The position numbers were made by a program, and so were the translations under genes. Below the pieces are notes generated by a model. That model was given only the letters and a program-made list of their open reading frames with translations. It had not been told where the DNA came from and made no database searches. Shown piece after piece: positions 19,126 to 36,664 of a stretch of DNA of 64,000 bases. How positions within the stretch are numbered: the first letter of the stretch is position 1; every line of letters begins with the position of its first letter. The stretch covers positions 3,583,501 to 3,647,500 of the forward strand of contig NZ_CP038255.1 in the NCBI RefSeq assembly GCF_004564135.1. The letters run 5' to 3'. Source of the DNA: Terasakiella sp. SH-1 (lineage in GTDB: Bacteria; Pseudomonadota; Alphaproteobacteria; Rhodospirillales; Terasakiellaceae).

Positions 19126-20622
19126 GTGTTTGTAATCGCAATGGTAAAGCAGTCTGGAAACAAAGACTTTGAAGGTTTTTGGGAACAGCAGGAAGCCTCG
19201 AGCTATTGGTCGGAGCTTTGCACAAAAATGGATTCCAAGTTCAAAGGAGATCCCATTGCAGAAATTCAGCTGTTTAAGGCCGATGCTTCTTCCATTGCCG
19301 ATGGGATTAAACAGGCCCGCAAAGGGCAACTGGATATGTTGAAATCCCACCGTCCGGCCAACACAAAACAATTGCGTGAAGTTGTGCGCCTGACCGGGGA
19401 AGGGCTTGTGGATGATGCGGTGCTCGATGCAGCCAATAAGGCACTTTATGGGATGGCCGATCAGTTTTTGACGTTGATTTCAAAATTGGTCAGTGAATTG
19501 TCAGATGTGGTCAAAGGGTTGGCTGCTGGTCAAAGTGCCAGTGACGAACATAAGAACCGCCTGAATGAAATTGCCTATGAGGTTAAAATTCAGGGCGGCA
19601 GTTTTAACTTTCCCTTGATGTCTCTGGTTGGGGCGCATTTGGAAAAGTTCTTGTTAAAAAAAGCTCAGGAACCCATGACCGATACGCATTGTGTGACAGT
19701 CATGGAAGCGTATGTTTCCACACTTGAATATATTATTACCCATAAAATCAGCGGAACTGGTGGTGATGTTGGTAAGAAACTGTTGGCGCAGCTCCAAGCT
19801 GTGATTAAAGGGGAAAGCCAAAGCTTCGAACTGCCGAAGGTCGAAGAGAAAAAACCGCAAGCCTCTGCCCCGAAAGTGGAAGAAAAAGCGCCTGCACCAA
19901 AAACAGAACAACCAGCTGCCCCTGCAAAAGCAGCATCGCCATCGGCTAAAGCTTCTGCTTCTGCGCCAGCGGGGCAAAGCGCCCAAGCAGCAAGCAAACC
20001 CGCAGCCACACCAACAGCTGAAGCTGCGCCAAAGCCGACAACGCCAAAACCAGCAACACCAGAGCCCGGTGTTCAGTCTCAGGAAGCATTGGCGGCCATG
20101 TTTGCCAATGCCTCAACACACGATAGTGATGATCCAGACCCAAGCAAGGTCCATACGGAAGACTTTGAATTTAAAGATACATATAAAACAGGCTGTACAG
20201 CCATGGACGAGGACCACCGTTATCTCCTCCATCTGGTGAAGCACCTTTATTTGATGAATAAAGAACATGCCAGTGTGTTTGAAACGGATTTGATTTTGTT
20301 GATGCTGGAAAGCTACAGCCGCGTTCACTTTGGCCGTGAAGAATTGCTGATGGAAAAGATCGGGGACCCGGATCTTGAAAAGCACAAGGCAAATCACGAA
20401 GATATGCTGGAACGCTTGCTGGCTGTGCGCGATGAAAAAATGGCAACGGTTGATAAGAATCGCCAGCTGAAAAGTGTCTTGAAATATAAGCAGATTATTC
20501 TAGAACATATCATCTTTAATGACTTTGGTTATAAAAACATGGTTAAAGGCAAGGATGATCAGATCAGTGCCTTGTTGAAAGATTATGAAGTTCCTAAATC
20601 CTGGCTGGGAGATGAAGTATGA
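19126..20622 (+). CDS. hemerythrin-domain signalling protein with degenerate Hpt-like N-terminal domain
   Basis: 498 residues. Residues 1-225 are helical; EIAYEVKIQGGSFNFPL (148-164) resembles the Hpt-like motif IAHD.KGQGGSFGYPL, with Tyr151 where the phosphorylatable His is expected. An Ala/Pro/Lys-rich linker spans about 235-325. Residues 345-485 are a hemerythrin domain with all seven usual di-iron ligands: His364, His401, Glu405, His420, His424, His461, Asp466. It would sense oxygen or a related ligand. GTG start chosen because GGAGAG lies 6 bp upstream; an ATG at 19141 is possible. The next receiver gene overlaps by 4 bp. Confidence 0.8.
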   Translation: MFVIAMVKQSGNKDFEGFWEQQEASSYWSELCTKMDSKFKGDPIAEIQLFKADASSIADGIKQARKGQLDMLKSHRPANTKQLREVVRLTGEGLVDDAVLDAANKALYGMADQFLTLISKLVSELSDVVKGLAAGQSASDEHKNRLNEIAYEVKIQGGSFNFPLMSLVGAHLEKFLLKKAQEPMTDTHCVTVMEAYVSTLEYIITHKISGTGGDVGKKLLAQLQAVIKGESQSFELPKVEEKKPQASAPKVEEKAPAPKTEQPAAPAKAASPSAKASASAPAGQSAQAASKPAATPTAEAAPKPTTPKPATPEPGVQSQEALAAMFANASTHDSDDPDPSKVHTEDFEFKDTYKTGCTAMDEDHRYLLHLVKHLYLMNKEHASVFETDLILLMLESYSRVHFGREELLMEKIGDPDLEKHKANHEDMLERLLAVRDEKMATVDKNRQLKSVLKYKQIILEHIIFNDFGYKNMVKGKDDQISALLKDYEVPKSWLGDEV

Positions 20623-21116
20623 GTGATCTCCAGGCGTTTGGTCTGCAAGACCTGAATGTTTTGATTGTTGAAAAGGACCGCTGGGGCTCCAACCTGGTGG
20701 AAACTTTGTTGAAAGCCATGGGGGTGGAAAAAATCCGTGTGGCCTTTACCGAGGTGGATGCGGTTGGGATTATCAAGCATGAGAATCCTGATATCGTGAT
20801 TATGGAATATATGCTTTCGCAGAATACCACACTGGATTTGGTGAAGCGTTTGCGTTCGGCTGCTTTTGAACCTTATCAATATTCCAACATTATCATGTTG
20901 ACGGGTCGGGCGGATATGTCAACGGTGGCAGCAGCCCGTGATGCGGGGGTTAATGAATTTTTGGCCAAGCCTTTTAATGCCCATACCTTATATTCACGAA
21001 TTTGTTCGATGATTATCCATCCACGTCCTTTTATTGATTGTAAAAGTTACAAGGGGCCGGAGCGTCGTCGTCGCAATTACCGTGTTGAACACGAACGCCG
21101 AAAAAATAACACATAA
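20619..21116 (+). CDS. atypical receiver-domain protein with Glu at the phospho-acceptor position
   Basis: 165 residues, a single CheY-like receiver (about 10-130). The acidic pocket reads IVEKD (Glu18, Asp20), Thr95 (MLTGRAD) and Lys117 (LAKPF) are normal, but the usual phospho-Asp is Glu63 in DIVIMEYML. Such a receiver may be locked in an active-like state or not phosphorylated. The basic C-terminal tail YKGPERRRRNYR is common in alphaproteobacterial CheY-like proteins. Its start overlaps the hemerythrin gene stop (ATGA), so the two are coupled. Confidence 0.85.
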   Translation: MSDLQAFGLQDLNVLIVEKDRWGSNLVETLLKAMGVEKIRVAFTEVDAVGIIKHENPDIVIMEYMLSQNTTLDLVKRLRSAAFEPYQYSNIIMLTGRADMSTVAAARDAGVNEFLAKPFNAHTLYSRICSMIIHPRPFIDCKSYKGPERRRRNYRVEHERRKNNT

Positions 21117-21118
21117 AT

Positions 21119-22217
21119 TTACTGTGCGGCTTGATGTGTTTTTTCGGCCCAGTGAAGTACGCGTTCAGCTAAGACATTGGGGGGAAGTGACTTATTAATA
21201 TAGTCATCTCCACCCATTTGGCGGATATCCCGGATTGTCTCGCTGGAAGCCTGCGATGTGAAAAACAGAATGGGGCAGGTCAGCTGCTCCCATTCCAGCC
21301 TGATTTTCTTACAGGTTTTTAGTCCGTTTAATTTAGGGCGTAAACTCATAAAATAGACTTGTTTGGCGGAGATGTATTTGAGGATAGACAAGGCATGAAA
21401 CCCGCAGAAGTGCGAGCACTTTAAGGGTTTTATAACGCAGCTCTATCCTCAAATACATCCCGTCCCTTACGGGATTTCCCTAAAATATAGGCATTACTGC
21501 GTTAAAGTCTTTTGAAAGTACAAGTCTTCCTGCAAGCCTTTGCCTTGTCTTGCCTATATTTTAGGGAAACCAAAGCAAGTCTATTTTATGAGTTTACGCC
21601 CTAGGCATTTCCATATCAAGGACAATGACTTTTGGGGTTTTTCCTTCCAGATTACAGATTAGTTCAAGCCCATCTTCATAGGCTTCTACGTTAAATCCGG
21701 CGCTTTCTATCACAAGGGTGGCCATTTTGCGAAAATGTGCGCTGTCATCTGCGAACATGACAAGAGGTCTGTCGTCATCTGGGGGGTGACGCTGTTCAAT
21801 TGACCATTGGGTATCATGTTGTGCCCAGTAATCAATACGTTCAAGCAAAGCTTCTGGCTGAAAAGGTTTGATGATGAATTCATCAGCACCAGCTTCCAGA
21901 GCACTGTTTTCCAGATGATCCATGGATGTGAAAAAGACAATCGGGGTTTTGATCTCAGCCATATTGCGTTTGATCTGATAACAGGCGGCAAACCCATCCA
22001 CATTGGGCATATTGTAATCTAGAATAATGACAGAGGGGAGAGGAGCACCTCTCAAATTGCGAAGAGCGGTTAGAAGTTCCCCACCATCTTCAAAGCAGCT
22101 GACTTGATAACCCGCTTTTCCCAGAACATAGGAAACCATTTTACGTACAGTCTCACTATCGTCTGCGATAAAGATATGATGTGAATTACGATCAAAATTA
22201 TTCATTTGGTGCGCCAT
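21119..22217 (-). pseudogene. tandem-receiver response regulator interrupted by a MITE
   Basis: The 5' part (22217-21602) encodes receiver 1 (IFIADDSETVRKM, VIILDYNMP, FFTSMDH, IIKPFQP) and the start of receiver 2 (VMFADDSAHFRKM, VIVLDMEMP). The 3' part (21335-21119) continues PKLNGLKTCKKIRLEW, ILFFTSQASSE and DYINKSLPP. The 266-bp element at 21336-21601 separates them. Removing it plus one TA copy gives a 276-residue frame, with an exact MP-KLNG junction. The disrupted product would end in MPRA, lacking half of receiver 2; receiver 1 could still be made. Confidence 0.9.
21336..21601 (-). mobile_element. miniature inverted-repeat element (MITE), copy A
   Basis: 266 bp with perfect 26-bp terminal inverted repeats starting GGGCGTAAACTCATAAAAT, flanked by TA on both sides (21334-21335 and 21602-21603). 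Inside are two further long inverted repeats, around TGTATTTGAGGATAGA and around CCCTAAAATATAGGCA, so it can fold into a branched hairpin. It encodes no protein. TA duplication is typical of IS630/Tc1-type transposition, so it is probably mobilised by such a transposase. The copy at 36398 is nearly identical and inverted relative to this one. Confidence 0.9.
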
Positions 22218-35475: not shown

Positions 35476-35546
35476 TAGTTTTGATGTTATCATTCATAAA
35501 AAGTGATACCATGAAAAGTGTCATTTCCAAAGTGGTCGAGGGTCTC

Positions 35547-36398
35547 ATGGAACTAACAACCTTAAAAGTGTTTATTGCCGTTGCTGAAGCTGGCGGTGTT
35601 TCACCAGCCTCAGAACGGTTGCATTGTGTTCAGTCCAATGTCACCGCACGCATTAAAAAACTGGAAGAAGAACTCGGCGTGGCTTTGTTTATGCGCAAAA
35701 GCCGGGGGATGGAACTCAGTGCACAGGGGCGGGTTTTGCTGGAACATGCCTATCAAATTGTGGATATGGAACGTCAGGCCAAGCGGGCGGTGAATGCCAG
35801 TCTGGAAGATGGGGGCAGTTTATCACTGGGGTCGATGGAAACGGCAATGGCGGTTCGCTTGCCCTCTCTTTTAAAAGAGTTCCATCATCTTCACCCAAAA
35901 ACGGAATTATCGGTCCGCACGGGTACAACTGATGAAATGATTACACAGGTGCTGAATCATCAACTGGATTGTGCCATTGTGGGCAGTACGGTGAAGAGTG
36001 AGGAAATCATCCAGTATCCTTTCTTTACCGAAAGACTTGTGTTGGTCAGTGCGCCGGGCAAAGAAGCCTCCAAGACATTGCTGGTGTATCGCAAAGGTTG
36101 TGCCTATCGCGCACGGGCAGAAGAATGGCTGCGCCATGAAGGACGATTGCCTTATACCATCATGGAATTTGGTACGCAGGAAGGTATTGTTGGCTGTGTG
36201 TCTGCGGGGCTTGGGGTGACAATCTTGCCAATTGAAGTTGCCAAAACATTAAGCGCAGAACTGACAATTACGGATTTGCCAGAAGATATTGCCCGTGTGG
36301 AAACCTTTCTGATTTGTCATAAATCCACCGTCCAGACCAAACCCATGCAAACTTTGATGAATCTCGCGACCCGCTATAGTGCTGTACAGGCGGCTTAG
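35547..36398 (+). CDS. LysR-family transcriptional regulator
   Basis: 283 residues from ATG 35547; an upstream frame to 35481 is non-conserved and covers the operator. The HTH region is TTLKVFIAVAEAGGVSPASERLHCVQSNVTARIKKLEEELGVALF, followed by a ligand-binding domain (about 90-283). It is divergent from the ABM-MFS unit. The final TAG (36396-36398) combines the TA target with the first G of the MITE, so the element defines the stop codon; the ancestral C terminus may have differed slightly. Confidence 0.92.
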   Translation: MELTTLKVFIAVAEAGGVSPASERLHCVQSNVTARIKKLEEELGVALFMRKSRGMELSAQGRVLLEHAYQIVDMERQAKRAVNASLEDGGSLSLGSMETAMAVRLPSLLKEFHHLHPKTELSVRTGTTDEMITQVLNHQLDCAIVGSTVKSEEIIQYPFFTERLVLVSAPGKEASKTLLVYRKGCAYRARAEEWLRHEGRLPYTIMEFGTQEGIVGCVSAGLGVTILPIEVAKTLSAELTITDLPEDIARVETFLICHKSTVQTKPMQTLMNLATRYSAVQAA

Positions 36399-36664
36399 GT
36401 CGTAAACTCATAAAATAGACTTGCTTTGGTTTCCCTAAAATATAGGCAAGACAAGGCAAAGGCTTGCAGGAAGTACTTGTACTTTCAAAAGACTTTAACG
36501 CAGTAATGCCTATATTTTAGGGAAATCCCGTAAGGGACGGAATGTATTTGAGGATAGAACTGCGTTATAAAACCCTTAAAGTGCTCGCACTTCTGCTGGT
36601 TTCATGCCTTGTTTATCCTCAAATACATCTCCGCCAAACAAGTCTATTTTATGAGTTTACGACC
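36398..36664 (+). mobile_element. miniature inverted-repeat element (MITE), copy B
   Basis: 267 bp, flanked by TA (36396-36397 and 36665-36666), with ends GGTCGTAAACTCATAAAAT. It differs from copy A at about six bases plus one indel; the third terminal base changes from G to T on the left and, matching it, from C to A on the right, so the inverted repeat is kept. Internal inverted repeats are also conserved. It lies between lysR and the dipeptidase gene. Confidence 0.9.

Follow-up and report, generated by a model that had tools for sequence, protein, structure and literature searches.

The described systems closest to the element analyzed here are the type II prokaryotic MITEs, as defined in PMC10969869, the IS427 size class of IS5 elements, and the CIR repeats of Caulobacter and Brucella (PMC2229807). 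The IS427 size class is listed in a table of Paracoccus elements as mostly 832–865 bp long with a 2-bp duplication (PMC3281130), and the CIRs have been set against repeats in which the 5′ end pairs with the 3′ end (PMC2229807). The window, by which we mean the whole 64,000-nt stretch of the Terasakiella sp. SH-1 genome that was analyzed, contains a MITE which splits a gene for a two-receiver response regulator (Table 1). As far as the description in PMC10969869 extends, this MITE resembles the type II elements in being shorter than 500 bp and non-coding, in its inverted ends, target duplication and stable fold, and in a similarity to insertion sequences (IS) that is confined to the ends, while it is unlike them in that its core is found here with two unrelated pairs of ends. 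The same source describes the approximately 235-bp MITE Chunjie-1 of Geobacter uraniireducens, which likewise disrupts one gene locus and has its other full copies in intergenic positions; this likeness is one of description only. The 848-bp elements that are candidate partners of the focal MITE resemble the IS427 size class, as tabulated, in their TA duplication and in a transposase encoded in two overlapping frames; the MITE itself, unlike IS5 elements of that size, has no transposase. The CIRs, as they are described, share with the focal core an alphaproteobacterial host and two hairpin arms, but the focal element combines such arms with paired ends, and these ends match an IS. As an event the insertion is ordinary, and it is the apparent exchange of ends, together with the habit of this family of occupying stop codons, that raises its interest somewhat.

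Table 1. Features of the interrupted response-regulator gene and of the inserted element (positions in the window)
Feature	Position	Strand	Basis
3′ part of receiver 2, severed by the element	21119..21335	-	PF00072 match and continuity in G001
TA target duplication	21334..21335	.	
MITE with type A ends, 266 bp	21336..21601	.	differs from the own-genome consensus (11 copies) by a single one-base deletion
Terminal inverted repeat, end on the 3′ side of the gene	21336..21361	+	matches the other end at 26/26 positions
Hairpin arm 1 of the core	21371..21459	.	stems 21371-21388 / 21442-21459, 18 nt, 100% complementary
Hairpin arm 2 of the core	21475..21569	.	stems 21475-21493 / 21551-21569, 19 nt, 100% complementary
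Terminal inverted repeat that gives the 207-aa frame its in-frame stop (P-R-A-stop)	21576..21601	-	
TA target duplication	21602..21603	.	
5′ part of the gene, a 207-aa frame with receiver 1 and the beginning of receiver 2, ending in RA	21594..22217	-	PF00072, two stretches, best 15-128

The interrupted gene lies on the minus strand between positions 22217 and 21119, and its product gives two matches to PF00072 (Response_reg), the second of which is split by the element. Receiver 1 (residues 15–128) covers positions 1–110 of the 111 in the profile, and the open reading frame at 21119-21391 on the other side of the element matches positions 53–110. The preliminary description had proposed a 266-bp MITE, its inverted ends identical over all 26 bp and its target TA duplicated, and a continuous frame of 276 codons once the element and one TA are removed. 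Both proposals were borne out: the element was found as described, and a scripted joining of the flanks with a single TA gave one open frame of 276 residues and a stop, reading ...VIVLDMEMPKLNGLKTCKK... across the junction. A chance origin of the ends is ruled out by the fact that a 19-base end sequence occurs 36 times in the own genome at up to two mismatches, compared with no occurrence of a reversed control pattern, and by the 10 further full-length copies of the element. The focal insertion is an ordinary disruption of a gene by a MITE.

To compare the locus with an uninterrupted form, orthologs were searched for in 40 genomes, which were the own genome and 39 relatives. The only close match was in a congeneric genome, G001 (70% identity over residues 9–205, E 2.6e-94), followed in E-value, the own genome apart, by matches of 36% and 38% to receivers. 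In G001 the gene is whole, as one 264-aa frame reading VIVLDMEMPKLNGLDTCKK, and its sequence at the site is exactly LDMEMP|KLNG, so that the junction predicted for an insert-free allele is the one that was found. The two species thereby provide an unusually clean pair of states before and after an insertion. Identity to the G001 protein is 80% in the severed 3′ fragment, compared with 68% in receiver 1 and 72% in the first part of receiver 2, and the corresponding dN values are 0.14, 0.24 and 0.17; the 3′ part has not decayed and is conserved no less than the rest. For the two upstream parts dS was 1.7 and 1.9, for the 3′ part it could not be computed, and divergence of this order gives no numerical age for the insertion. 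Relative to the consensus of the full copies in the own genome, of which there are 11, the focal copy and two others have one difference each (range 1–7). Hence, the proposal that the insertion is recent was supported as probable by the undecayed severed part and the near-consensus sequence of the element, neither of which dates it. That the insertion could instead be old, and the gene a long-dead pseudogene, would agree with the dispensability suggested by a single genome copy and by an ortholog in only one of 39 relatives. This explanation is already largely refuted and very improbable, given that neither part of the gene has a further frameshift or stop, that the 3′ part has kept its identity and low dN, and that the element is one position away from its consensus.

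The consequence of a recent insertion for the product can be read from the end of the element, which, followed from the TA into the element, contains a stop in each of the three frames. Because this end brings in an in-frame stop, with the 5′ part ending as ...LDMEMP-RA-stop, the gene now encodes 207 aa, which are RA preceded by 205 residues comprising receiver 1, the linker and the start of receiver 2 as far as just beyond the phospho-acceptor aspartate. In the preliminary description receiver 1 was taken to be complete and to be possibly made alone with the short tail RA; its completeness was upheld by the profile match, while the predicted product is longer than this and includes a partial receiver 2. 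The motifs of receiver 1 are retained, as judged by eye. Receiver 2 is severed just past its phospho-acceptor aspartate, and the part that is lost is the one that in receivers contains the conserved Thr/Ser and Lys. The function of receiver 2 is therefore expected to be lost, and perhaps that of the whole protein as well. The gene is accessory, to judge from its close match in a single one of the 39 relatives, and its loss was probably tolerated. A shortened but stable protein, in which a working receiver 1 is freed from receiver 2 so that function is changed rather than abolished, would be in accord with the complete receiver in the 5′ part and with its otherwise undamaged frame, but it appears unlikely, as the product would carry a partial receiver 2 without its last strands, which would probably make it unstable, and its transcript would have a very stable fold 3′ of the stop.

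The neighbors of the split gene at 19126-21116 in the window are convergent to it. One of them, a one-receiver protein (20619-21116), has a stop separated by 2 bp from the stop of the split gene and overlaps a 498-aa frame, which has no Pfam match and an end that looks hemerythrin-like by eye. Relatives of both adjoin the whole gene in G001, where a 163-aa relative of the neighboring response regulator lies past a 68-aa frame.

The own genome (G000; 3.83 Mb in one contig) contains 11 full copies of the MITE, which are 266–267 bp long, the 10 apart from the focal one being 97–99% identical to it. It also contains two internally deleted copies of 167 and 173 bp, two copies of 59 bp, and single-end remnants. 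The element thus is short, has inverted ends and a target duplication, and exists in several copies, as do type II MITEs. A second full copy in the window (36398-36664) is in the opposite orientation, and its TA is part of the stop codon that ends a 305-aa frame (35481-36398), which resembles a LysR-type regulator by eye. The two 59-bp mini-elements (L015 and L016, G000:C1:2830427-2831937) consist of little beyond two ends and flank a single 456-aa gene, and at one of the pair the TA belongs to two stop codons at once, those of convergent genes. Matches to the element were found in three of six genomes of the genus, which are the own genome, G001 and G005. A second subfamily, with ends GGGTCAGGACC... 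and a length of 263–265 bp, is represented by six full copies in the own genome and five in G001; its ends are 41–48% identical to those of the focal type, compared with 66–78% for the core.

The positions of the insertions were analyzed for 37 copies with both ends in G000, G001 and G005, of which 20 have the focal ends and 17 the second kind; single-end remnants were not counted, and L164 was dropped since it has no pair of ends. Only one weak match of 49 bp, away from the junctions, was found among the 600-bp flanks, and the 37 sites were counted as separate because their flanks are not shared. The TA is present on both sides in 33 of the 37, and 34 sites are YTAR, which is the target motif given for IS5 in PMC10359306. 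When the flanks were joined and genes were called by length alone (≥100 aa), which makes the classes rough, the insertion coincided exactly with the TA of a stop codon in 13 cases, was between genes in 18 and was inside a called gene in 6, compared with 30, 218 and 571 matched YTAR sites in the same flanks. Stop codons are hence overrepresented relative to intergenic sites (odds ratio 5.2, p 0.00013), and positions inside genes are rarer relative to the rest (odds ratio 0.08, p 7e-11). The excess was seen with minimum ORF lengths of 100, 150 and 200 aa, for which 13/36, 12/36 and 10/34 insertions were exactly on stops versus 30/802, 25/802 and 18/765 in the null; in a count by distance to the stop, only the exact-stop row was used, as the "deep inside" bin does not separate positions upstream of a gene from those within it. 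Of the six inside cases, five are no more than about 35 nt from one of the two ends of the called ORF, and the focal insertion, about 216 nt from the stop end and about 614 nt from the start end, is the sole deep one of the 37.

Both kinds of ends begin with G after the YTAR target, and because the element begins with G after TA, an insertion on TAA or TAG leaves the gene with a TAG stop. A second set came from G071, a genome of another family, which has more copies than the 26 loci that were taken from it; 22 of these were counted after three without a pair of ends and one duplicate were dropped. There, 6 insertions were on stops, 8 between genes and 8 inside, versus 13, 102 and 148 in the null, which again gives an excess of stops over intergenic sites (odds ratio 5.9, p 0.0066), while the depletion inside genes was not significant (odds ratio 0.44, p 0.08). 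Six of these eight inside cases are 49–158 nt from the nearest ORF end, so that the rarity of deep coding insertions is shown for the genus only. The excess on stops could reflect either targeting or survival, which are indistinguishable from sequences, and the family offers a tractable case for asking whether stop-codon insertion is a safe-harbor strategy or is what selection leaves. A literature search at the level of titles and first lines of abstracts, which is not proof of absence, gave no direct precedent for MITEs at stop codons.

Named species genomes were scanned for the exact 20-base end, a scan from which the records of the own genome were possibly left out, and five loci were obtained. 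Two of them, in an alphaproteobacterial MAG (L103) and in Novosphingobium organovorum (L104), contain elements of 848 bp, flanked by TA at either side, that share with the MITE the start GGGCGTAAACTCATAAAATAG of one end, with identity over 21 bases. The transposase of L104 is encoded in two overlapping frames, which scored 128.8 and 158.8 bits with the NCBIfam model NF033580 (transpos_IS5_3, cut-off 110), placing it in the IS5 family. An 848-bp relative with the end GGCCGTAAACTCATAAA is present in G002, a genome of the genus that has no match to the MITE. The assignment of these partners to the IS427 group, by size and 2-bp duplication against the published table only, is provisional. Comparison of the MITE with four IS (L104, L112, L122 and L123) gave only matches of 10–26 bp in the ends at E < 0.1 and none in the interior. 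The MITE is classed as type II because its similarity to these IS is confined to its outer 19–26 bp; the notion that the core is a decayed IS interior was rejected for want of any interior match to these four IS.

In the own genome, a profile search with PF01609 gave no matches, and one with PF13340 gave two remnants, one above the cut-off with an internal stop and one below it, but no intact transposase. Neither of these two loci has either kind of end at up to four mismatches. Four other loci with single or paired end matches (L033, L041, L046 and L057) contain ordinary genes by ORF reading, with no transposase visible by eye. Since these two profiles gave no intact transposase of the fitting kind in the own genome, the mobilization is inferred from the ends alone. 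An IS5-family transposase of the approximately 850-bp, TA-duplicating kind would act on the MITE in trans and would since have been lost from this genome, or have been at most transient in it; the MITE would insert at a YTAR site in the accessory two-receiver gene, and receiver 1 with the broken half of receiver 2 would remain. We consider it very probable that a type II MITE, moved in trans by such an IS5-family enzyme, hit this accessory gene at YTAR and shortened its product to 207 aa through the stop in its end. A 295-bp element in a Hyphomicrobiales MAG (L106:7294-7588) has nearly the focal ends and an apparently different interior, and is perhaps another MITE using a similar transposase.

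The distribution of the core bears on the origin of the two kinds of ends. A DNA search with the core in 199 genomes of the order gave matches in at least six, of which three belong to the genus and the other three to another family; this is a lower bound as few candidates were scored per genome; within that other family the core was matched in 5 of 18 genomes. All nine copies inspected there have the second kind of ends, one of them (in G100) being rather diverged. The second-subfamily core of G001 is 74–78% identical to the focal-type cores versus 71% to the second subfamily of the own genome. A maximum-likelihood tree was computed for 23 cores and rooted on the other family; in it the focal-type copies group together and are nested within the second-type copies. 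The unrooted tree gives a support of 93 to the split of all focal-type from all second-type copies, and of 98 to the split that joins the second type of G001 with the focal type; the value of 73 on the focal group after re-rooting is the support of a neighboring split that was moved by re-rooting. IS with PF13340-type transposases and the ends GGCTCAGGACCTATTAA and GGGTCAGGACTCATTGA are present in G002.

An exchange of ends is suggested by the occurrence of one core with two kinds of inverted repeats, which match those of two IS5-type elements. The simplest reading of these comparisons is that the second kind is the older one and that the focal subfamily acquired its ends by replacement within the genus. 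The two kinds could alternatively have diverged gradually with their transposases, as both are 26 bp long, belong with one transposase family and agree at some of their positions; this is rather improbable, and less likely than replacement, given the abrupt step from 41–48% identity in the ends to 66–78% in the core, the nesting of focal-type among second-type cores, and the coexistence of both kinds in one genome. Replacement could be part of a wider picture, which we put forward tentatively and consider somewhat less likely than not: a structured passenger core unrelated to the IS compared would have switched transposase by replacing both ends, and the family would persist on stop codons without altering proteins, with the focal insertion as the one exception, in which the cost of landing in coding sequence becomes apparent. 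The family is a tractable case of how elements without a transposase change the one they depend on. Neither for the exchange of MITE ends nor for the host bacterial group did the titles and opening lines of abstracts contain a direct precedent, which is not proof of absence. Some copies in G071 (L173:1476-1871 and other loci) are 396 bp long because they contain a further short repeat, which occurs many times in that genome at 99–100% identity, as an element within an element.

The core folds into a structure of several arms. In the predicted fold of the element, the two ends pair and enclose two long arms as well as a small hairpin at the center, and this fold is far more stable than those of shuffled sequences on both strands (z -15.3 and -15.5). 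No Rfam family matched in the window at the gathering score, and none up to E 1 in L001 and L018. Covariation was tested on 27 full copies with the end pairs excluded. Of the cells in the alignment, 98.0% could pair, compared with a mean of 86.8 for shuffled alignments and 38.7–49.0 for slid structures, though the structure was derived from the tested sequences and is thereby favored over its slid versions, and related copies are not independent. Changes on both sides affected 31 of 70 pairs versus 22.1 in shuffles, and the covariation score was 0.349 versus 0.143. The number of further pair types, 56, was not above the shuffled value of 56.1, and was reached by 292 of 500 shuffles.

Such covariation is no proof of a selected RNA or cruciform, because mutational correction can keep long inverted repeats paired. 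Template switching and conversion are a known process in near-perfect inverted repeats, and we give an even chance to the explanation that this process, rather than selection for an RNA or cruciform, produced the covariation. It is in keeping with the unmatched stem changes retained by two own-genome copies (L010 and L011) and with the 59-bp copies, which have little beyond their ends and yet are flanked by TA on both sides, so that the core is dispensable for insertion. A recognizable core has, however, persisted with either kind of ends and across two families of the order, which speaks against this explanation. The interior matches its own reverse strand at 73–75%, and each half of the element looks like an inverted copy of the other half.
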